This document shows positions 35,357 through 54,609 of a stretch of DNA of 64,000 nucleotides, piece by piece; position 1 is the first letter of the stretch, and each line of letters starts with the position of its first letter. The DNA comes from Treponema brennaborense (GTDB lineage Bacteria > Spirochaetota > Spirochaetia > Treponematales > Treponemataceae), in NCBI GenBank assembly GCA_023666275.1, contig JAMPCJ010000007.1:1-64000 (forward strand). The letters are read 5' to 3'. The notes under the pieces were generated by a model, which searched no databases, had not been told where the DNA came from, and saw nothing but the letters and a program-made list of their open reading frames with translations. The position numbers were made by a program, and so were the translations under genes.

Positions 35357-36394
35357 TTATTTTTTGTTGAAGACATCGGTTTTTTCGTTGTATTTTCCGA
35401 GTTCTTTTGAATTTCCTATGATTTCCAAAACAAGCGAGCTGCTCAAATAATTTTCCATTTCCGTAAAATTGTTTCCGTAATTGTTCCTGTAGCGCTCTCC
35501 GACATATTCTTCTATCGCGCGTTTTACATTGATGTTTTCAGCCTTGATTTGAGTCTTAAGATTTTCAATCAATTTTTCAAGCGAATAGCTGTCTTTCGGA
35601 ACTTTCAAAAGATAATGATAAACTACGGCTTCTTTTTTCGAAACATTTTTTTCGCCGGCTCTTTTTTCGATTTCCGCAGTGAACGCAATGTAATTTCGAT
35701 ATTCGGCGGAATCCGCAAGATTCAATTTCCGTGCAGTGTCCCAAACTTCTTTTGTTTCAAAACCTTTTGCCGCAGCATTTTGATAATCAGAATTTTCATT
35801 GAATCCTTTCGATTTTGCAGTTTTATAAACTTCCATCGAAGAAAATCCGTGCTTTTGCAGAAAAAGAAATTCGATATATTTCGGCAATGTGTTAATCCCC
35901 TTTTCTTTTGCCGAGTAATACGATTCGGAAATTGAGCCGCCGAGATAAATTTCTTCTTCTTCGAATTTGGCATAATTCGCACGCTCGAATTTTTCTGCCC
36001 AGCCGTTTGCCCAAGCATCCAAGGCGTCCGCACCGTTCGCAAAATGATTCGACTTGTAAAAATAGAAACGCTCCGCATCCGGAATTTTCTGCTCGGCAGA
36101 TTCATAATAATCGCCTGCGTTTTTGTATTCGCTTCCGGCTTTAAAATCCGCCACAGTTCTATAGCCTTGCAGATTGTACGAATAATAAGTGCTGCCGACA
36201 AGCACATAAGATTTCGAAGTTTTTTTGCAAAAGAAAATATCACCCGTCGCGAATTTCTCAAAGTCGCTCAAATTCGAAAATTCGATTTCCGAAATATTCG
36301 CAACATCTTTTATTTCTATATACTTTATTTCTGCCGCTGCCCGCGAGCAGCAAATCAAACAAAACAGTGCCAAAGACAGTGCAGCTTGCTTCAT
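35357..36394 (-). CDS. Exported protein of unknown function
   Basis: The 345-residue protein has a signal peptide (KQAALSLALFCLICCSRAAA); the Cys-Cys-Ser could be a lipobox but is atypical. The mature part is hydrophilic, Lys/Glu/Tyr-rich and mostly helical, with repeated FxxxxxYKxAxxKGF-like units (about residues 150-235) that resemble short tandem repeats. The codon use is AT-rich, like the next gene. ATG 36394 follows AAGGAG. It lies 90 bp downstream of the transglutaminase-like gene and may be its partner. Confidence 0.6.
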   Translation of the reverse strand: MKQAALSLALFCLICCSRAAAEIKYIEIKDVANISEIEFSNLSDFEKFATGDIFFCKKTSKSYVLVGSTYYSYNLQGYRTVADFKAGSEYKNAGDYYESAEQKIPDAERFYFYKSNHFANGADALDAWANGWAEKFERANYAKFEEEEIYLGGSISESYYSAKEKGINTLPKYIEFLFLQKHGFSSMEVYKTAKSKGFNENSDYQNAAAKGFETKEVWDTARKLNLADSAEYRNYIAFTAEIEKRAGEKNVSKKEAVVYHYLLKVPKDSYSLEKLIENLKTQIKAENINVKRAIEEYVGERYRNNYGNNFTEMENYLSSSLVLEIIGNSKELGKYNEKTDVFNKK

Positions 36395-36484
36395 AATTAT
36401 TTTCTCCTTGAAAAAAATACGAGCGAAAAACTCACAGCATTTATTATTACGCATCAAGTTTTCCGCGGCGGCATTTTCGCAATT

Positions 36485-38266
36485 TTATTTTTCCAAATTC
36501 CAGGCAATCAAACTGCCGAAATTTTTTCCGTTTGCAGACGCGAAAAGCTGCAGCTGTTTTTCGCCGCTCGGAATTTCGAATTCCAATTCGAAATTTCCGC
36601 TTGCAGCGTTCTTTTCGAAAAAGTGCCATTCGCCGTTTATGATGAACGCGAACTTCGTGAAATTGCCCGAACGAATTTCAAACTTCTGCTTTGTGCCGGA
36701 TTTTAACTTGCCTGCAAGCGGCGCAATAAGTTCCGTGTTCGCGGCATTGTTGTACGTCATGTAGCGGTACGGATATTTCAAGTTCCCCGCGCCGAAGCCC
36801 GGATAATTCGCGGCAGCTTTCAGGTTGAATGTCAAAACCGGTTCCGAATGCACCACATCAGGTTCGACAAGTTTCGCGATTTTCGCAAGCGCGGCGTTTC
36901 TTGCGGATGCAAATTGATCGTCCGCCAGATAATAGCGGCGGTTTTCTCCGATTTTAAAATACGCGCCTTCGAAATATTCTTTTTCCTTTTGCGTGATTTT
37001 CTTTTCCGCAAAAAGTTTTTCGGCGGCGGGAATCCATTTGCCTTCGAATTCGGGAATCGAAATCACAAACTGATAAGGCGAAGTTTCCCGAACGTAAATT
37101 CCGCCTTGATAATCTGCGCCGTCGGGAACATCGTAGCAGAACGTAACTGTGCCGCCTTTGCGTTTTGTCCAAGATGCGCCTTCCACAAATCCGCGGTCAT
37201 CGAACAATTCGTTCGTGACGAAAAGATTTCCGTTCATCTTTATCTGCACTTGGAATTCGCCTGACGTTTCGTTTGAAAAATGCAGTTTGTCGTCGGCAAG
37301 CGAAAGTCCTTTTTGAAAAAACTTTCCTTCGATTTTCGGTTCTTTTTCAAATTGTTCTTTCGAAAGCACAGGCGCGTAAAATTGTTCGGGATCATCCTGC
37401 GCCAAATGCGAATACAAAAATGTCCGCGCGTCCCAAAACAAATATTGCGTGGAATATCGCTTGATGAAAGTTTTGTAATCCAAATAGCCCGCGTCCCAAG
37501 TCGCGTCGAGCAGATACCAGCGGCCGTTGATTTTCACGGCGTTCCAATCGTGATCGGGCTGCGTTCCCGTTTTGCCGGAAAATCCCGCGCCTTTGGAAAA
37601 GCCCGAAATCGTTTTCGATTCGATTCCCGCAAGTGAACACATTGCGTTTATGCACGAAGCGTAGCCTGCGCAGACCGCTTTCCGCTTTTTGATGACGCTC
37701 GCGTAATCCTGTGAAGAAACTCTTCCCGAAAAATACATTTGCGCATCATAGGCGATGTTGTCGCAAATCCAGTCGTGAAAAATTTTCACTTTCGCAAAAT
37801 CGCTTTGCACGCCGTTCGCCAAAAACGCGGCAAGCTGCGGAAGGAATTCTTTCGGATTCTGAAAAACGCCCTCGCTGATTTCCTTTGGAACGCGGCGAAC
37901 TTTGGCGTCCATTTTGTCCGTGTGGAACTGCGAAAGCGACGCGGATTTTCCCGTGTAAAATTTCAGCACGGCGTTCGCCTTTGCCAGCAGTGCGGAATCG
38001 GGATTTTCGGATTGTGCAAACGCATACAAATAAGCGCAGTCCCCTGCTTCAAGTGCGGCATTCACGTGCACCGCGTCGAAAATCATTTGTGCTTTTTCGC
38101 GCTTTTTTTCGGGAGAACGCACAGAATCGGACGAAGAAATTTCCGCAGCATTGCTTTTTTCGGAAGCGGAATTTTTCTCGGAAGACAATTTCGGTTTTGC
38201 GGCAAACGCATCTGCAAAAATCATTGTGAGCGCGATGAACGAAAAAATAATTTTCTTTGTTTTCAT
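36485..38266 (-). CDS. Exported transglutaminase-like protein
   Basis: The 593-residue protein has a signal peptide ending at ADAFA. A transglutaminase-like core is at about residues 130-260: the nucleophile is in KAVCAGYASCINAMCSLAG, the His in QPDHDWNAVKI, and the Asp in LLDATWDAGY, so the Cys-His-Asp triad is complete. C-terminal beta-rich domains follow. Such proteins act as peptidases or amide-transferring enzymes, often on cell-wall or surface proteins. ATG 38266 follows GGAGAA. The promoter region holds a G8 run within the -35/-10 spacer, which suggests phase-variable expression. Confidence 0.82.
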   Translation of the reverse strand: MKTKKIIFSFIALTMIFADAFAAKPKLSSEKNSASEKSNAAEISSSDSVRSPEKKREKAQMIFDAVHVNAALEAGDCAYLYAFAQSENPDSALLAKANAVLKFYTGKSASLSQFHTDKMDAKVRRVPKEISEGVFQNPKEFLPQLAAFLANGVQSDFAKVKIFHDWICDNIAYDAQMYFSGRVSSQDYASVIKKRKAVCAGYASCINAMCSLAGIESKTISGFSKGAGFSGKTGTQPDHDWNAVKINGRWYLLDATWDAGYLDYKTFIKRYSTQYLFWDARTFLYSHLAQDDPEQFYAPVLSKEQFEKEPKIEGKFFQKGLSLADDKLHFSNETSGEFQVQIKMNGNLFVTNELFDDRGFVEGASWTKRKGGTVTFCYDVPDGADYQGGIYVRETSPYQFVISIPEFEGKWIPAAEKLFAEKKITQKEKEYFEGAYFKIGENRRYYLADDQFASARNAALAKIAKLVEPDVVHSEPVLTFNLKAAANYPGFGAGNLKYPYRYMTYNNAANTELIAPLAGKLKSGTKQKFEIRSGNFTKFAFIINGEWHFFEKNAASGNFELEFEIPSGEKQLQLFASANGKNFGSLIAWNLEK

Positions 38267-38364
38267 ACTTTTCTCCAAATCAAAATATACTGCTATTCGA
38301 GTTTTCATTTTTTCTCCGAATTTTCCGCATTTGTACTTATACAGTCAAATTTTTCCATAAAAAC

Positions 38365-39167: not shown

Positions 39168-40505
39168 TTACTCCTCGCCGAGTTTGCGGTGCAGCGTTTT
39201 TCTGCCGATGCCGAGCACTTCCGCGGTTTTTGATTTATTTCCTTTTTGAATCGCCAGATTCTGCCGAATGATAATTTGTTCCGCTTCATCAAGCGTTATG
39301 CCGGCGGGAACACGGATTACGTCGTCTTCTTCCGAACCGCTGATAGACGGCGGCAAATCGCACATCGAAATAACGCTGCCGCCGCACATAACGACGGCGC
39401 TTTCAATGCAGTTGCGCAGCTGACGGATGTTTCCCGGCCAGTCGTATTTATACAGCGCGCTGCGTGCGCGGGCGTCGATTCCCGTTATCTGTTTGCCGTT
39501 TTCCTGCGCGAATTCCTGCAAAAACGCCGTTACCATAAGCGGAATGTCGTCTTTCCGTTCCCGAAGCGGCGGCACATGAATATGCACCACGTTAAGACGG
39601 TAATATAAATCTTCGCGGAAGCGCCCGCTGCTGATTTCTTTTTCCAAGTCCCGATTTGTGGCGGCTATAACGCGCGCATCTACTTCCAGCGTTTCTTCGC
39701 CGCCGACGCGTTCAAAGCGCTTATCCTGCAGCACCCGCAGAATTTTTATCTGCACATTCTGGTCTATTTCGCCGATTTCATCGAGAAAAATAGTGCCGCC
39801 GTGAGCAAGTTCGAAGCGTCCCCGTTTTCGCGCAACGGCTCCGGTAAACGCGCCTTTTTCGTGCCCGAACAGTTCGCTCTCCAAAAGATTTTCGGAAAGC
39901 GCGGCGCAGTGCACTTTGACAAGCGGTTTGTCTTTCCGCGACGAAAGATTATGGATTGCGTTTGCTATCAGTTCTTTTCCCACGCCGCTCTCTCCGGTAA
40001 TGAGAACAGACGCTTTTGAATCGGCGACGCGGCGAATCATGCCGAATATTTTCTGCATTTCCGCGCTTTTGCCGATTATCGATTCAAATGTTTTTTTGTG
40101 TTCGAGTTCCTCAAGCAGGCGGCGGTGATGCATGGCAAGCTCGCGTCCCTGCAGTGCGCGGCGGACTATCAGTCCGAGCTGATCGAGATTGAGCGGCTTT
40201 GTCAAAAAGTCGTAGGCGCCGTTCCGCATAGCGTCAACCGCGCTGTCGATGCTTCCGTGTCCGGTTAAAATAATTACCGGAACGCCGGGCGTTTCCGCGG
40301 TTACTTTCGAAAGGATTTCGGCGCCGCTGACTTCCGGCATGCGCAGGTCGGTTATAACCAAATCGATGTCGCCTTTCGCAATGAACGCGAGCCCTTCCCT
40401 GCCGTTTTCCGCAAGCACGGTTTCATAGCCGTCCATTTGCAGAAAATCGGACAGCCCTTCTCTGATGTTTTTTTCATCATCAATAATAAGAATTTTAAAA
40501 CGCAT
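39168..40505 (-). CDS. NtrC-family sigma-54-dependent response regulator
   Basis: The 445-residue protein has a receiver domain (Asp in DLVITDLRMPE, ~54), a central AAA+ ATPase domain with Walker A GESGVGKELIA and the sigma-54-contacting GAFTGA loop, and a C-terminal Fis-type helix-turn-helix (KTAEVLGIGRKTLHRKL). It activates promoters used by RNA polymerase with sigma-54. It is 112 bp downstream of a histidine kinase gene, its presumed partner. A near-perfect sigma-54 promoter lies within this window at 50017-50032. AtoC/NtrC-like; the signal is unknown. Confidence 0.93.
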   Translation of the reverse strand: MRFKILIIDDEKNIREGLSDFLQMDGYETVLAENGREGLAFIAKGDIDLVITDLRMPEVSGAEILSKVTAETPGVPVIILTGHGSIDSAVDAMRNGAYDFLTKPLNLDQLGLIVRRALQGRELAMHHRRLLEELEHKKTFESIIGKSAEMQKIFGMIRRVADSKASVLITGESGVGKELIANAIHNLSSRKDKPLVKVHCAALSENLLESELFGHEKGAFTGAVARKRGRFELAHGGTIFLDEIGEIDQNVQIKILRVLQDKRFERVGGEETLEVDARVIAATNRDLEKEISSGRFREDLYYRLNVVHIHVPPLRERKDDIPLMVTAFLQEFAQENGKQITGIDARARSALYKYDWPGNIRQLRNCIESAVVMCGGSVISMCDLPPSISGSEEDDVIRVPAGITLDEAEQIIIRQNLAIQKGNKSKTAEVLGIGRKTLHRKLGEE

Positions 40506-40617: not shown

Positions 40618-41892
40618 CTATTGCAGCGTATCATGCAATTCTTCCGCACGGCAATCGTCTATTTCAAATGTAACGCCGGCAGCGTTTTCCGCGCCGCCGG
40701 TGTATTCGAGCAGGCGCAGTTCCTTTTGCGGAACCGGCAGCGTTACGACAAACATCGTTCCGCCGCCGAGACGCGACTTTACCTGAATATCGCCCGAAAA
40801 TTCCTTGATGATTTTGTATACCATTGTAAGGCCGAGCCCCGTACCCGACGCTTTCGTCGTGAAATACGGCTCGAATATGCGGTGCATCGTTTGTTCGTCC
40901 ATGCCGATTCCGTTGTCCGCCACAATAATCGCAAGGCGGTCCTCTTTCATTTCCGATGAAATGCACAGCACGCCGCCGGAAGGCATAGCGGCAATCGCGT
41001 TTTGTATCAGGTTTATCATTGCCTGCTTGAATAATTTTGCATCAATCATGCAGTGCGGCGGCTTATCCATTAAATTGATTTTCAGCGTAATTCCTTTTGC
41101 TTCGAAATCCGGCTCGAAAAACGGAATAAAAGAATTCAGCAGTTCTGTCGTATCCGCAAATTCAAGTTCGGCATGAACGGGGCGCACCGCCGTCAGAAAA
41201 TCCGTAATAATTTGATTCAGGCGGTTTATTTCTTCGGTTACGATGTCCAGATGTTTTTCGACAAACTGCGCATCCGCCTGGGCATTTTCTTCTTTCTGCG
41301 CTTTTTCAAAAGCCTTCTGAATCAGCTGAATGTGAATGCTGATGCTTCCGAGCGGATTTTTTATTTCATGGGCAACGCTCGCCGCAAGGTTCGTGAGGCT
41401 CGCGAGATTTTCCATGCGCCGCAGCAATGTTTCCTGCCGGCGTTTCTCGGTAATATCATCTATCTTGACAATGGTCCCCGCGAATTTTCCGTCTTTCACC
41501 AAAGACTGCGTGCTCACGGAAATAAATTTTACCGCGTCGCCGGCATCGGGCAGAGAAAATTCTTCGCTTGTCGTATTTTTTTTCCCCTGCGCTGTTCTGT
41601 GCAGATACGAAGCGATTTCCGCATCGCTGATGCTTTCCCATATCGGCAGCGCGGACATGTCGGAAATATGCATTTCCGCGACATGCTGAATAAACGGAAT
41701 ATGCCGTTCCGCAGCTTTGTTTTTCAGCACGGGGCGCCAATTCTTATCGCAGATTACAAGTCCCGTATTCAGCGACTGCATCACGGCGGAAAATGTTTCG
41801 TTTTTCGTTGTGATGTCGTCAATGAGTTTTTCAGCTTGAGCGGATGTCAGTTTTGACAATTTAGGGGATACGCGTTTTGCAAAACTTCCCAC
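40618..41892 (-). CDS. PAS-domain sensor histidine kinase
   Basis: The 424-residue protein lacks membrane helices. A PAS domain is at about 45-160 (GLVICDKNWRPVLKNKAAE). The HisKA dimerisation helix holds the phospho-accepting His in SVAHEIKNPLGSISIHIQLI, and the HATPase domain has N-box NLIQNAIAAMPSGG and G-boxes (DNGIGM, GTGLGL). It should phosphorylate the NtrC-type regulator downstream from a cytoplasmic signal. GTG 41892 is chosen because AGGAGG precedes it at the right distance. The gene follows the holB-like gene by 70 bp. Confidence 0.92.
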   Translation of the reverse strand: MGSFAKRVSPKLSKLTSAQAEKLIDDITTKNETFSAVMQSLNTGLVICDKNWRPVLKNKAAERHIPFIQHVAEMHISDMSALPIWESISDAEIASYLHRTAQGKKNTTSEEFSLPDAGDAVKFISVSTQSLVKDGKFAGTIVKIDDITEKRRQETLLRRMENLASLTNLAASVAHEIKNPLGSISIHIQLIQKAFEKAQKEENAQADAQFVEKHLDIVTEEINRLNQIITDFLTAVRPVHAELEFADTTELLNSFIPFFEPDFEAKGITLKINLMDKPPHCMIDAKLFKQAMINLIQNAIAAMPSGGVLCISSEMKEDRLAIIVADNGIGMDEQTMHRIFEPYFTTKASGTGLGLTMVYKIIKEFSGDIQVKSRLGGGTMFVVTLPVPQKELRLLEYTGGAENAAGVTFEIDDCRAEELHDTLQ

Positions 41893-41962
41893 CGAATTCC
41901 TCCTTGCGGTTTTATGAAATGTCTCCGCGCGCAAAGAACAGCCGCCGCAAAATGCGGACGCG

Positions 41963-48864: not shown

Positions 48865-49848
48865 ATGGAAATTACAGCAGAACAGCTCGCAGCATTTGTT
48901 CGTTTTATCGACAGCCATGACAGTTTTATCGTAAGCGGACATAAAGAACCTGACGGCGACAGTATTTCAAGTGCAATTGTGCTGGCTAAGCTGTTGGAAA
49001 AACGCAAAAAACAAACTCAGCTGCTCTCCGCGGGACCGTTTAAACGGATCGAAATAAAAAAATTCGAAAATTTATTCAGCAAAAAATTTTCTCCCCCGGA
49101 AGATTCTTCCGCTTCGATAGGTTTATTCATGCTTGACTGTTCCGAAAAAGAACGGCTCGGCGATATAATCACAAAAGAACAGTTTGACGGTCTTGATATT
49201 TTTATCATAGATCACCATAAAACATCCGAATGCGCTTCAAGCAGCGGTATTATACATCCCTCGGCGCCGGCAACGGCATATCTCATCCAGCTGCTTTACG
49301 AAAAAATAATCGGCAAACCGGATAAAGAAACGGCGGATATTTTGTTTTTCGGCATGTGCACAGACACCGGTTTTTTCCGCTTTCTGGACTGCGGCAGTAC
49401 GGAATTTTTCAAAGCGGCCGCAAGACTGGTGGAAAGCGGCGCGAATCCCCGCGCGACATACACGGACATGACCAGCGGCAAGCCGTTCAGCACAAGAAAG
49501 CTGCTCGGCGTTCTGCTGGAACGGGCGGAACAAAAATTCGACGGCAAGCTTATCGTTACCTACGAAACGCTTGAAGACACACATAAATACGGTCATGCCG
49601 GAAGAGATTCCGACAGTTTATACCAATTGCTGCTGTCCGCAGACAATACGGAAGCAGTGCTGTTTATCCGGCAGGATACAGAACATTCCTGTACAGCGGG
49701 ATTTCGTTCCAAAGATGCCGTCGATGTCAGCGCGATTGCGGCGGTTTTCGGCGGCGGCGGGCATAAAAACGCGGCGGGACTGAGTACCGAAGGCAAAATC
49801 AGTACTCTGCTCCCGCTGATTCTCCAAGAATTTTCAAAAATCTTTTAA
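48865..49848 (+). CDS. DHH-family phosphoesterase (NrnA-like)
   Basis: The 327-residue protein has the DHH motifs EPDGDSISSAIVL (residues ~29-41), MLDCSE, IIDHHKTSECA (~114-124) and the C-terminal DHHA1 motif GGGGHKNAAG. NrnA enzymes degrade short RNA (nanoRNA), pGpG or the phosphonucleotide pAp, using Mn2+. In treponemes this could finish RNA decay begun by the RNB nuclease and recycle cyclic dinucleotides. A specific substrate cannot be read from the sequence. Confidence 0.9.
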   Translation: MEITAEQLAAFVRFIDSHDSFIVSGHKEPDGDSISSAIVLAKLLEKRKKQTQLLSAGPFKRIEIKKFENLFSKKFSPPEDSSASIGLFMLDCSEKERLGDIITKEQFDGLDIFIIDHHKTSECASSSGIIHPSAPATAYLIQLLYEKIIGKPDKETADILFFGMCTDTGFFRFLDCGSTEFFKAAARLVESGANPRATYTDMTSGKPFSTRKLLGVLLERAEQKFDGKLIVTYETLEDTHKYGHAGRDSDSLYQLLLSADNTEAVLFIRQDTEHSCTAGFRSKDAVDVSAIAAVFGGGGHKNAAGLSTEGKISTLLPLILQEFSKIF

Positions 49849-50016
49849 ATTTATACAGCCGGCAGTACTTTTTTTTCGTTTTTTTAATTTGCACCGAAAA
49901 ATATTTTATCCAATATCTCCATTTATTTTAAATATTTTCAAAGCGCAAATCGTGTATTTTATTATATTATAATGAAATATCGGAAAAATAAGATTGCCGC
50001 GCATTTTCTTTAATTT

Positions 50017-50032
50017 TGGCACTGATATTGCA
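50017..50032 (+). promoter_or_regulatory. Sigma-54 promoter of the sigma-like gene
   Basis: TGGCAC-TGATA-TTGCA matches the -24/-12 consensus almost fully; the GG (50018-50019) and GC (50030-50031) pairs are 10 bp apart, which is the required spacing. The predicted start is about 28 nt before the ATG at 50071. An NtrC-type activator and kinase are encoded in the same window. The remaining 49849-50010 region is AT-rich and could hold activator sites; no gene is seen. Confidence 0.8.
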
Positions 50033-50070
50033 TTTATCTCCGTACAACAACTTTTACACAGGAGTTTTGT

Positions 50071-50943
50071 ATGGACAAAATGCGTTTTGAAAAACTGTAT
50101 GAGCAGACGGCGGAAGGTTTGCTGTCAAAAGAAGACACTGCACATTTTATAATGGAACAGCTGTACACGCATCCCGCTTTTTTCGGAATAAATACGCTGA
50201 CGCAGGACGAACGGAGTGAATATATCCTGCATTTATATCCGCTTTTGCTGAGGATAACAGACATTTTCAATCCGGAATCCGGTACTTTTCTCGGATATGT
50301 GCAGGCTATCATCCGGCGCAACATGAAAAGCTGGAAAAAACGGCAGCAGGAAAAATCCATGAAAAATGAATTTTGTTATCAGCTGCATCTGGAAAATGAT
50401 TTCGACCAATCCATTGCTTCCGAAACGGAGGCGTCATATTTCAATCACACAGCTGCACTGAAACAGCAAAGTGCTCCGGCACTCGATAAACAAATGCAGA
50501 AAAAACATCTTGACATACTGATTCTCGCCTGCAAATCGTCGGTTTATTTAACCGAACAGCACATCGAAAAATTATCGAAACTGACTTCGAAATCCCAAAA
50601 AGAATTATGGGACATAAAAAATCAGCTGGATAATTCCGTTGCCGGAAAACTGCAAAAACGGCAGAAGAAACTTGAATCCGCAAATATTTCGTACATGCGC
50701 AGGTTTAACAGCAAACAAGCGCTGAATAATGCAGGTGCAGATCCGTATTTATCCGAAAAATACAAAAATCGATTTTTATTTCATGACAAAATGTGGAAAA
50801 AACAGCGGAAAATCGCTTCGGAATATACCATAACGCCATCATGCAGCAAAATAGCGGAAGTTCTGCATACTTCCACTTACAAAGTGCAGTCCGCATTTAT
50901 GAAACTGCAAAACAAACATGATTTTCCGATAAAAGATGAATAG
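50071..50943 (+). CDS. Sigma-factor-like / DNA-binding protein, unassigned
   Basis: I do not recognise this 290-residue protein with confidence. Residues ~50-95 (YILHLYPLLLRITDIFNPES, then TFLGYVQAIIRRNM) resemble sigma-70 region 2 (the 'FNPExGxFxxY' turn), and the C-terminus (CSKIAEVLHTSTYKVQSAFMKLQN) resembles a helix-turn-helix like region 4. The middle is helical and basic. It lies behind a near-perfect sigma-54 promoter, with GGAG before the ATG, and just upstream of rdgB. A regulatory role is inferred; no homologue was searched. Confidence 0.55.
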   Translation: MDKMRFEKLYEQTAEGLLSKEDTAHFIMEQLYTHPAFFGINTLTQDERSEYILHLYPLLLRITDIFNPESGTFLGYVQAIIRRNMKSWKKRQQEKSMKNEFCYQLHLENDFDQSIASETEASYFNHTAALKQQSAPALDKQMQKKHLDILILACKSSVYLTEQHIEKLSKLTSKSQKELWDIKNQLDNSVAGKLQKRQKKLESANISYMRRFNSKQALNNAGADPYLSEKYKNRFLFHDKMWKKQRKIASEYTITPSCSKIAEVLHTSTYKVQSAFMKLQNKHDFPIKDE

Positions 50944-50976: not shown

Positions 50977-51618
50977 ATGATATTTTACCTTGCATCAGGA
51001 AACCTGCACAAAAAGCAGGAAATGGCACAATTGTTCCCATCTGACGAAATACGAGTCCCGTCGGATGAGAACATACCGTTTAATCCCCAAGAAACAGGCG
51101 CTACATTCGTTGAAAACAGCTTGATAAAAGCGCGCTCTTTGTGGCAGCTGATAAAAAAACCGGTACTTGCGGATGATTCGGGTATCTGCGTACACGCGCT
51201 GAACGGAAGACCGGGAATTTATTCTTCCAGATATGCCGGAAAAAATATGCCGCAGGGAACAGCGGACGGGACCAAGCTGCCGCAATCGGAGCAAAACAGA
51301 CTGCTGCTGGAAGAAATGTCCGGCTGTGCGGATCGCCGATGTATGTATGTCTGCGCCATGGTATTTTACTACGGCGACAATCGTTTTTTTTCGGTGCAGG
51401 AAACCATGGAGGGACTGCTTGTAGAAAACATATCGCAAGCCGGCGGCACGGGCGGATTCGGGTACGATCCCATCGTCTTTATTCCGGAACTGAAAAAAAC
51501 TGTTGCGGAATTGACGGATGCCGAAAAAAATCTCATATCGCACCGCGGAAAAGCATGCGGAATTTTAATGCCGCTTATACGGCAGTTTTCGATCATGCAA
51601 AAACAATATACCGATTAA
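50977..51618 (+). CDS. rdgB: RdgB/HAM1 family non-canonical purine NTP pyrophosphatase
   Basis: This enzyme removes dITP, dXTP and similar non-canonical nucleotides from the pool. The opening ASGNLHKKQEMAQLF, the ADDSGICVHALNGRPGIYSS block and GGTGGFGYDPIVFIP are family signatures. Length of 213 residues is normal. It begins 34 bp after the sigma-like gene but has its own promoter. Convergent with the methyltransferase gene, with a shared terminator between. Confidence 0.93.
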   Translation: MIFYLASGNLHKKQEMAQLFPSDEIRVPSDENIPFNPQETGATFVENSLIKARSLWQLIKKPVLADDSGICVHALNGRPGIYSSRYAGKNMPQGTADGTKLPQSEQNRLLLEEMSGCADRRCMYVCAMVFYYGDNRFFSVQETMEGLLVENISQAGGTGGFGYDPIVFIPELKKTVAELTDAEKNLISHRGKACGILMPLIRQFSIMQKQYTD

Positions 51619-52551: not shown

Positions 52552-53412
52552 ATGGTCATCAACCACAACATGTCAGCAATGTATTCCAATCGCAGTCTGG
52601 GTATTTCTGTTTTGAGTACGCAGAAAGATATGGAAAAACTCTCTTCCGGCATGAGAATCAACCGGGCTGGCGATGATGCATCAGGACTTGCCGTTTCCGA
52701 AAAAATGCGCAGTCAAATCCGCGGTTTGAACATGGCTTCTCAGAACGCTTCAAACGGTATCAGTTTTATTCAGACAACAGAAGGCTATTTGCAGGAAACA
52801 ACTGATATTATCCAGCGTATCCGCGAACTCGCAGTTCAGGCTTCAAACGGTATTTATTCTGATGAAGATCGCATGCAGATTCAGGTTGAAGTTTCTCAGC
52901 TGGTTGCGGAAGTTGACCGCATTGCAAGTCAGGCACAGTTTAATGGCATGAACATGCTGACAGGTCGTTTTGCCCGTCAAACGGGAGAAAACGCTGTTAC
53001 CGCGTCCATGTGGTTTCACATCGGCTCGAATATGGATCAGCGCATGAGTGTATTCATCGGAACGATGACAGCCGAAGCGCTCGGTCTGCGGGAAATCGGA
53101 TCTGAAAACATTATGTCACTGGCTGCTCCGGATGATGCCAACCGTTCAATCGGTACACTCGATGAAGCTATTCTGAAAATCAACAAACAGAGAGCCGATC
53201 TCGGTGCTTACCAGAACCGCCTTGATACCGCTGTAAAAGGCATCGATATTGCTGCAGAAAACTTGCAGGCTTCGGAATCTCGTATCCGCGATACCGATAT
53301 GGCAAAACAGATGGTAGAGTTCACTAAAAACCAGGTATTGACACAGGCAGGAACGGCAATGCTTGCGCAGGCAAATGCACAGTCGCAAAATGTCTTGTCA
53401 TTGCTCCGGTAG
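52552..53412 (+). CDS. flaB: Periplasmic flagellar filament core protein (flagellin)
   Basis: The 286-residue protein is a short spirochaete flagellin made of the conserved helical D0/D1 ends only: [18 protein letters not shown] at the start, [20 protein letters not shown], and [20 protein letters not shown] with [16 protein letters not shown] at the end. FlaB proteins build the core of the periplasmic filament. GGAGGAAA precedes the ATG. A second, close paralogue follows at 53752. It cannot be decided from sequence which of FlaB1, FlaB2 or FlaB3 it is. Confidence 0.95.
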
Positions 53413-53428: not shown

Positions 53429-53751
53429 GCAGGGAAAGCAGCTGCGTTTTTTCAGTGATTGAAAACAAGCTGCTTTGTCCTGCGGGCTTGGCGCGTACTA
53501 TTTGATGTTTTCCCGTTTTAAACCGAATTATTTTTGCGTGTTTTAGCCACGCAATTGATCTTTGAAAAACTTTCCTGTGCTGTATGTAACAGTATGGACG
53601 GTTACCGCAAGCGGCAGCAGCAACTCCGCTTCGATAACAGTTCCTGCTGTATGGAGCTAAACGATACTGCCGAGGCGCAAAACAGCAGTATTGCCGTACA
53701 TACAGGGCTTAAGGCATGGAATGCCAAAAGTATAACACATGGAGGGTAACT
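53429..53751 (+). ncRNA. Structured leader (or small RNA) between the two flagellins
   Basis: The ~320-nt gap has no supported gene but many stems. A long imperfect stem pairs 53429-53442 with 53469-53483. GCGTG/CACGC closes a small loop near 53537-53552. A 9-bp stem CTGTATGTA (53580-53588) with TACATACAG (53697-53705) encloses CCGC-AA-GCGG (53605-53614), a CAGCAG/CTGCTG stem and ATACTGC (53664-53670) with GCAGTAT (53685-53691). The block CAGTAT (53590-53595) can pair with ATACTG instead, so two states exclude each other. The predicted promoter at 53395-53423 would start it. No known riboswitch was recognised. Confidence 0.45.
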
Positions 53752-54609
53752 ATGATTATCAATCACAACATGAGTTCCATGTATGCCAACCGTAATTTGG
53801 GGATTTCCAATTCGCAGGTTATGGGCAACATAGAAAAACTCAGTTCTGGTCAGCGCATAAACAAAGCTGGCGATGACGCATCGGGCTTAGCTGTTTCCGA
53901 AAAAATGCGGTCTCAAATCCGCGGATTGAACCAGGCTGAAAAGAATATTCAGAACGGCGTATCATTCATTCAGACAACAGAAGGCTATTTGCAGGAAACG
54001 ACTGATATTCTGCAGCGCATCCGTGAACTTTCAGTGCAGTCGGCAAACGGTATTTATTCCGATGAAGACCGAATGCAGATTCAGGTTGAAGTTTCACAGC
54101 TGGTTGCGGAAGTCGACCGCATCGCAAGTCAAGCGCAGTTTAACGGCATGAACATGCTGACGGGCGGTTTCGCTACCGATTCCGCATCGGGACGGATCAT
54201 GCAGCTGCATATCGGCGCAAACGTTGACCAAAACGAGCGTATCTTTATTGGAACAATGACTGCTCAGGCGCTTGGTTTGGCCGGCGCGCAGGGAGCGACT
54301 GATGAAAATCTTTCCATCGCTTCTCCGGATGCCGCAAATATGGCTATCGCGAAGGTCGATGAGGCATTGAAATCCGTAAGCAGACAGCGCGCGGATCTGG
54401 GTGCCTATCAGAATCGTTTTGAAACTGCCGCAAAAGGAATCGCGGTCGCAGCTGAAAACACACAGGCTGCCGAATCTCGTATCCGCGACACAGACATGGC
54501 GCAGCAGATGGTAGAGTACACCAAAAACCAGATTCTCACACAATCCGGAACAGCTATGCTTGCACAGGCAAACGCTCAATCACAAAATGTATTGAGACTG
54601 CTGTCGTAG
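53752..54609 (+). CDS. flaB: Periplasmic flagellar filament core protein (flagellin), second copy
   Basis: The 285-residue protein is a close paralogue of the preceding flagellin, sharing [18 protein letters not shown] at the start, [20 protein letters not shown] in the middle and [15 protein letters not shown] at the end; the main differences are in the central ~60 residues. GGAGGGTAAC is before ATG 53752. It follows a long structured leader with its own promoter, which suggests separate regulation from the first copy. A terminator follows at 54672-54706. Confidence 0.95.

Follow-up and report, generated by a model that had tools for sequence, protein, structure and literature searches.

The locus and its gene neighbourhood

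The window, i.e. the whole 64-kb stretch of DNA analysed here, contains a gene for a 290-aa protein in the company of two genes on the same strand (Table 1). Upstream lies a gene for an nrnA-like phosphoesterase, and downstream follows rdgB, which encodes a Ham1-type nucleotide pyrophosphatase. This arrangement was also observed in other genomes. An nrnA-like gene was found immediately 5' of the ortholog in 54 of 86 loci, and rdgB was the next gene 3' in 71 of 94 orthologous loci, usually less than 100 nt away. Probably, rdgB and the gene for the 290-aa protein form one operon. Two similar, adjoining flagellin-like genes are located 3' of rdgB (52552-53412 and 53716-54609). In another part of the window, a 366-aa ORF without a Pfam match (35357-36457) adjoins a transglutaminase-core gene on the same strand (36485-38308).

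Table 1. Features of the locus, in window coordinates.
Feature	Position	Strand	Basis
NtrC-type sigma-54 activator (REC, AAA+, Fis HTH), candidate activator	39168..40505	-	Pfam
PAS/HisKA/HATPase sensor kinase adjoining the activator	40618..41934	-	Pfam
nrnA-like DHH/DHHA1 phosphoesterase, upstream neighbour	48865..49848	+	DHH and DHHA1 Pfam domains
Sigma-54 (-24/-12) promoter TTGGCACTGATATTGCA	50016..50032	+	Exact motif match and conservation across orthologs
Ribosome-binding site AGGAG	50060..50064	+	Seen directly in the sequence
Gene for the 290-aa sigma-70-like protein	50071..50943	+	ORF, ATG at 50071
Sigma region 2-like domain, residues 1-92	50071..50346	+	AlphaFold blocks with pLDDT 88-98; VIA-align
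Flexible linker, residues 113-139	50407..50487	+	pLDDT 51-54 for residues 111-140
Inserted helical part, residues 140-251	50488..50823	+	AlphaFold, full length and C-terminal part modelled separately
C-terminal helix-turn-helix, sigma region 4.2-like, residues 256-282	50836..50916	+	Consensus, Sigma70_r4_2, PDB profiles
rdgB (Ham1-type nucleotide pyrophosphatase)	50977..51618	+	Ham1p_like, E 8e-50; 33 nt downstream

The preliminary description of this DNA had reported a near-perfect sigma-54 promoter before the 290-aa gene as well as an NtrC-type activator and a kinase in the same window, and all of these were found. Within the promoter, TGGCACTGATATTGCA at 50017-50032 of the plus strand is the sole match without mismatch to TGGCAC-N5-TTGCA in the 64-kb window. 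The GG (-24) and GC (-12) elements are spaced exactly as in the standard TGGCAYRNNNNTTGCW, in accordance with a sigma-54 promoter. The window's own site carries T rather than R after TGGCAC. In the complete genome, TGGCAYN5TTGCW matched four times, compared to five matches for a reversed-pattern control. Because this count is not above the control, the lone site in the window proves nothing by itself.

The 290-aa protein belongs to a divergent, probably sigma-70-related family

One ortholog each was detected in 58 of 99 related genomes (E 0.001 or better), with 18-31% identity. With a profile built from 56 members, 323 of the 395 genomes in the class and 126 of 133 genera gave a match, mostly in single copy; some of the weaker matches, with E ~1e-5 in family f13, possibly represent other sigma factors. 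The family profile gave no match in a 1.1-Mb treponeme genome (G019) and none in several listed genomes of family f24, whose size of 1.0-1.8 Mb is reminiscent of Borrelia. The family is fast-diverging, and its members share only ~20% identity. When the window protein served as query, no relative was obtained among named organisms, and the alignment contained no stretch conserved enough to be used as a query. A named ortholog, from Treponema putidum OMZ 758, was reached via a T. denticola-like ortholog. The family has never been named, and the open-licence papers searched contained no earlier account of it. Nor were the sigma-54 sites described here found in this literature.

By itself, the window protein matched none of the sigma models of Pfam and NCBIfam. 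Its matches to the RpoA C-terminal domain and to DUF models were below cut-off and not common to the family, and were rejected. For the family as a whole, the NCBIfam model TIGR02937 (sigma70-ECF) gave matches in both samples: at order level in 36 of 56 members, with a best E of 4.5e-9, and at class level in 33 of 41, with a best E of 7.2e-11. In several members the match was colinear over almost the full length of the model. In the ortholog L210, a single stretch comprising residues 18-277 aligned to profile positions 3-162 of 165; therefore, both sigma ends are colinear, with ~100 residues inserted between them. Among the ten members with bits listed, the best score was 36.5 bits (E 3.4e-9). 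As this lies below the curated cut-off of 42.9 bits, we refer to the family as ECF-like and not as ECF. If the family is indeed a sigma subfamily, it is one that current models miss because its members score below the cut-offs.

Further matches concern the two ends of the protein. Sigma70_r2 matched five of 56 and five of 41 members (best 2.4e-5), and Sigma70_r4_2 matched 15 of the 41 class members (best 6e-4). Profile comparison with the PDB also linked the family weakly to region 4 of ECF sigma factors (E 0.02-0.1). The C-terminal helix-turn-helix, with the family consensus PTNxxIAxVLGxPKGxVDSGL, resembles region 4.2 at the level of sequence. Positions of region 2 are kept across the family: position Y76 is 91% Y, F66 is 100% Y/F and D46 is 97% D/E. 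An hhalign comparison with a profile of group-2-type sigma-70 proteins, which was built from these loci, yielded a weak match restricted to the C terminus; by this comparison the family does not resemble group 2.

The AlphaFold2 model of the window protein reached a mean pLDDT of 89.4. With VIA-align, residues 1-92 could be superposed on 87 aa of E. coli sigma-E (1or7_B) with Z 8.9 and an rmsd of 3.0, and on SigC (2o7g) with Z 8.0, and region 2 of sigma-E, SigC and SigK together gave Z 7.9-8.9, a range in which values have to be read with care as unrelated helical matches also reach Z 8-10 with this second-look aligner. Foldseek returned nothing at E 0.001 or better, neither for the whole model nor for the C-terminal part. 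Owing to the Foldseek result and to the unrelated helical matches at similar Z, the fold match is supporting, not conclusive. With moderate confidence, residues 1-92 are predicted to adopt the ECF sigma region 2 fold. In the inserted part, AlphaFold placed a helix-turn-helix-like element (162-189) followed by a long hairpin (191-251). We know of no counterpart of this inserted hairpin in characterised sigma factors. VIA-align of the C-terminal part matched the long hairpin only; its outcome is dominated by this hairpin and carries no information on the helix-turn-helix parts.

The region 2-like and region 4-like segments claimed in the preliminary description are thereby upheld for the region 2 fold and for the family, by its sigma70-ECF matches, but not by a sigma match of the window protein alone. 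In the structure prediction that had been proposed as a check against sigma regions 2 and 4, region 2 could be aligned; the search with the C-terminal part picked up the hairpin only.

How should a protein of this kind be understood? The main rival to a sigma factor is a sigma-derived DNA- or polymerase-binding regulator without a role in initiation. It would still be made from a sigma-54 dependent promoter; region 2 would dock to the polymerase, and the insertion and the C-terminal helix-turn-helix would be used otherwise. The very fast divergence within the family, the sub-threshold sigma scores and the additional helix-turn-helix-like element and long hairpin between the sigma-like ends would suit such a regulator. 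However, the sigma70-ECF model runs colinear over almost the whole length in several members, and region 2 retains its aromatic (Y76, F66) and acidic (D46) positions. On balance, we consider a non-initiating regulator unlikely, though well worth bearing in mind, and prefer to regard the protein as a sigma factor of the sigma-70 superfamily, divergent and ECF-like.

The sigma-54 promoter is conserved upstream of orthologous genes

Of 94 orthologs, 62 carry the strict pattern TGGCAY-N6-TGCW on the coding strand no more than 300 nt before the gene. As a control, these upstream regions were dinucleotide-shuffled, and the shuffled versions contained a mean of 0.13 and a maximum of one. All orthologs with enough upstream sequence were included in this sample; being linked by descent, they do not represent 94 independent events, yet their coding sequences are only ~20% identical. 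A relaxed promoter score was reached in 77 of 94 orthologs (5.2 in shuffles). In orthologs with a strict site, positions left free by the pattern are still sigma-54-like, with R in 96% after TGGCAY and T in 81% before TGC. The promoter was found in at least 20 families. It is this conservation upstream of orthologs that renders the promoter in the window significant.

In the T. denticola-like genus (L300, L301, L304 and L055 versus L302), four of the six genomes carry TTGC or TAGC in place of an intact GG at -24. The change corresponds to a loss of the first or the second G, and the GG is intact in T. putidum. We also noticed that TTGGCACGAAAGTTGCA is a recurring repeat, mostly with no gene behind it (L149 in G032, three copies; L107 and L119 in G014). 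It may belong to a mobile or integron-type repeat, and its recurrence inflates counts of sigma-54 sites.

The frequent position of rdgB directly downstream also allows the reading that the promoter mainly serves a stress-inducible operon, above all rdgB and thus nucleotide-pool cleaning, with the sigma-like protein as a passenger. In the examined loci from genomes without the sigma-like gene, however, no sigma-54 site was found near rdgB, which makes this reading less likely. Moreover, loci in which rdgB was not found close by often retain the promoter (e.g. L176, L180, L194, L211). We therefore judge a promoter centred on rdgB to be improbable.

A phased direct repeat accompanies the promoter in many orthologs

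A search for enriched 6-8-mers led to a direct repeat, TGTAAM-N4-TGTAAM, which is located 5' of the promoter in 28 of 94 loci (~0.1 expected). The half-sites are 10 bp apart. The orthologs with the repeat come from families other than the window's own; the repeat was found neither in the window itself nor in that family. Strict inverted repeats were considered as an enhancer as well, and none was convincing. When 390 genomes of the class were scanned for the repeat together with the promoter, 36 matches were obtained, compared to none with a reversed control. Most of these lie before members of the sigma-like gene family. In a few cases, the gene that follows belongs to a family of exported proteins of 450-550 aa (L276 and L290 in G198, L284 and L293 in G263, L288 in G312, L291 in G216).

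Between the repeat and the -24 element, distances fall into groups at 31, 42-47 and 52-56 nt. A periodicity measure of 0.62 was calculated near 10.5-11 bp, where random draws exceed 0.52 about once per thousand; the search window confined the distances to ~30-60 nt, and related genomes are non-independent. Such helical phasing suggests that the repeat is the site of a putative protein that has to face the polymerase. That the site in the window is an unused chance match and the protein not sigma-related can practically be dismissed: the pattern count in the genome is no higher than that of the reversed control, but the strict site recurs upstream of most orthologs far above the shuffled expectation and is joined in 28 loci by a second, phased element.

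Sigma-54 machinery and other sigma-54 sites

Among spirochaetes, the role of sigma-54 is known chiefly from Borrelia and Leptospira. The rpoN gene was detected in 96 of 99 related genomes, the source genome included. Here, a single RpoN is encoded (Sigma54_DBD at C3:5736-6257, E 4.8e-48) along with three strong Sigma54_activat domains, one of them within the window. As the genome has two further strong activator domains, the activator in the window is one candidate only.

Apart from one site inside a purH-like gene, the four TGGCAYN5TTGCW sites of the source genome precede the window gene and two genes for sigma-70 proteins of 289 aa and 273 aa (Sigma70_r2 2e-19 and 1e-18). A looser sigma-54 site precedes an Hsp20-like gene. 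The sites before the two canonical sigma-70 genes and the Hsp20-like gene are L088 (C1:15479), L090 (C14:57241) and L168 (C11:330583). Across 13 genomes, 15 sigma-54 sites precede sigma-70 genes and ~11 precede genes judged Hsp20-like by eye. Dps-like, PspA-like and peroxiredoxin-like genes, again assigned by eye, were also found behind sigma-54 sites. In two cases, a site with the sigma-54 consensus is located 41-55 nt 5' of the start of a gene judged Dps/ferritin-like by eye (L117 in G019, L124 in G069); the one in G019 is at the same time internal to a 212-aa ORF.

Bulk predictions of sigma-54 targets are enriched for sigma-70/sigma-32 genes, IbpA and PspA (PMC12316311). T. denticola responds to heat, oxygen and osmotic shock with induction of the sigma-70 gene TDE0937 and of Hsp20, both part of its core stress response (PMC2965109). 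Taken together with the sigma-54 sites at sigma-70 and Hsp20-like genes, this makes a stress role for the sigma-like gene plausible.

A proposed sigma-54 to sigma-70-like cascade

We propose that a divergent ECF-like protein of the sigma-70 superfamily is made from a sigma-54 promoter, forming a cascade from sigma-54 to a sigma-70-like factor, and hold this to be the probable reading of the locus. It draws on sequence comparisons, namely the conserved promoter, the family, the similarity to region 2 and the company of other sigma-54 sites; we infer core binding, initiation, the stress signal, the identity of the activator and the regulon. An enhancer-binding protein would activate RNA polymerase-sigma-54 at the promoter, and the sigma-like gene would be transcribed from there, probably jointly with rdgB. 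Its product, presumably built from a region 2 domain, a flexible linker, a helical insertion of ~100 aa and a region 4.2-like helix-turn-helix, would bind core polymerase and redirect it. A sigma-54 regulon comprising the two canonical sigma-70 genes and the Hsp20-like gene would then have this gene as a further output. The cascade outlined in the preliminary description, from a cytoplasmic signal through sigma-54 to a second regulator, thus keeps its core, a conserved sigma-54 promoter ahead of a gene for a sigma-like protein, but its NtrC and kinase pair is only one of three activator candidates.

The same description had recognised no described spirochaete pathway of this type, a point that calls for correction. 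In Borrelia burgdorferi Rrp2-RpoN-RpoS, sigma-54 and an NtrC-type activator drive expression of a second factor, one of the sigma-70 family, and an A/T-rich direct repeat, TAAATTAAAT, is bound by BosR upstream of the -24/-12 site (PMC3037356). The cascade proposed here is of the same kind, also with a direct repeat upstream in many orthologs. It differs in that the second factor belongs to a divergent ECF-like family, whereas RpoS is a different sigma-70 protein. The repeats differ as well: TGTAAM-N4-TGTAAM has the spacing described above and is lacking in the window's own family.

With ECF (group 4) sigma factors, e.g. E. coli sigma-E, the family shares the predicted region 2 fold and the colinear TIGR02937 match, and its C-terminal helix-turn-helix may correspond to region 4.2. 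Unlike these, it has the insertion between its ends, a sub-threshold score and predicted sigma-54 control, and its neighbours are nrnA and rdgB instead of an anti-sigma gene. Many ECF sigma factors are autoregulated.

The conservation of the promoter-gene pair suggests a two-step control cascade, so far unrecognised, through the whole class. If the proposal is true, a pair kept through most of the class would represent a common output of sigma-54, and a subfamily would be added to the known set of sigma factors. About evenly balanced, in our view, is the broader idea that this unnamed sigma-70 subfamily with its helical insertion is an ancestral, class-wide sigma-54 output, with its own phased activator box in many lineages, and that Borrelia RpoN-RpoS is one form of a plan common to spirochaetes, with sigma-54 in control of other sigma factors. 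For treponemes, sigma-54 would be tied to sigma-70 and Hsp20-like stress genes. This resembles the shared stress set of TDE0937 and Hsp20 in T. denticola, in that sigma-54 sites precede sigma-70 and Hsp20-like genes in related genomes; TDE0937 itself is annotated as a sigma-70 family protein, from which the family of the window protein is separate.
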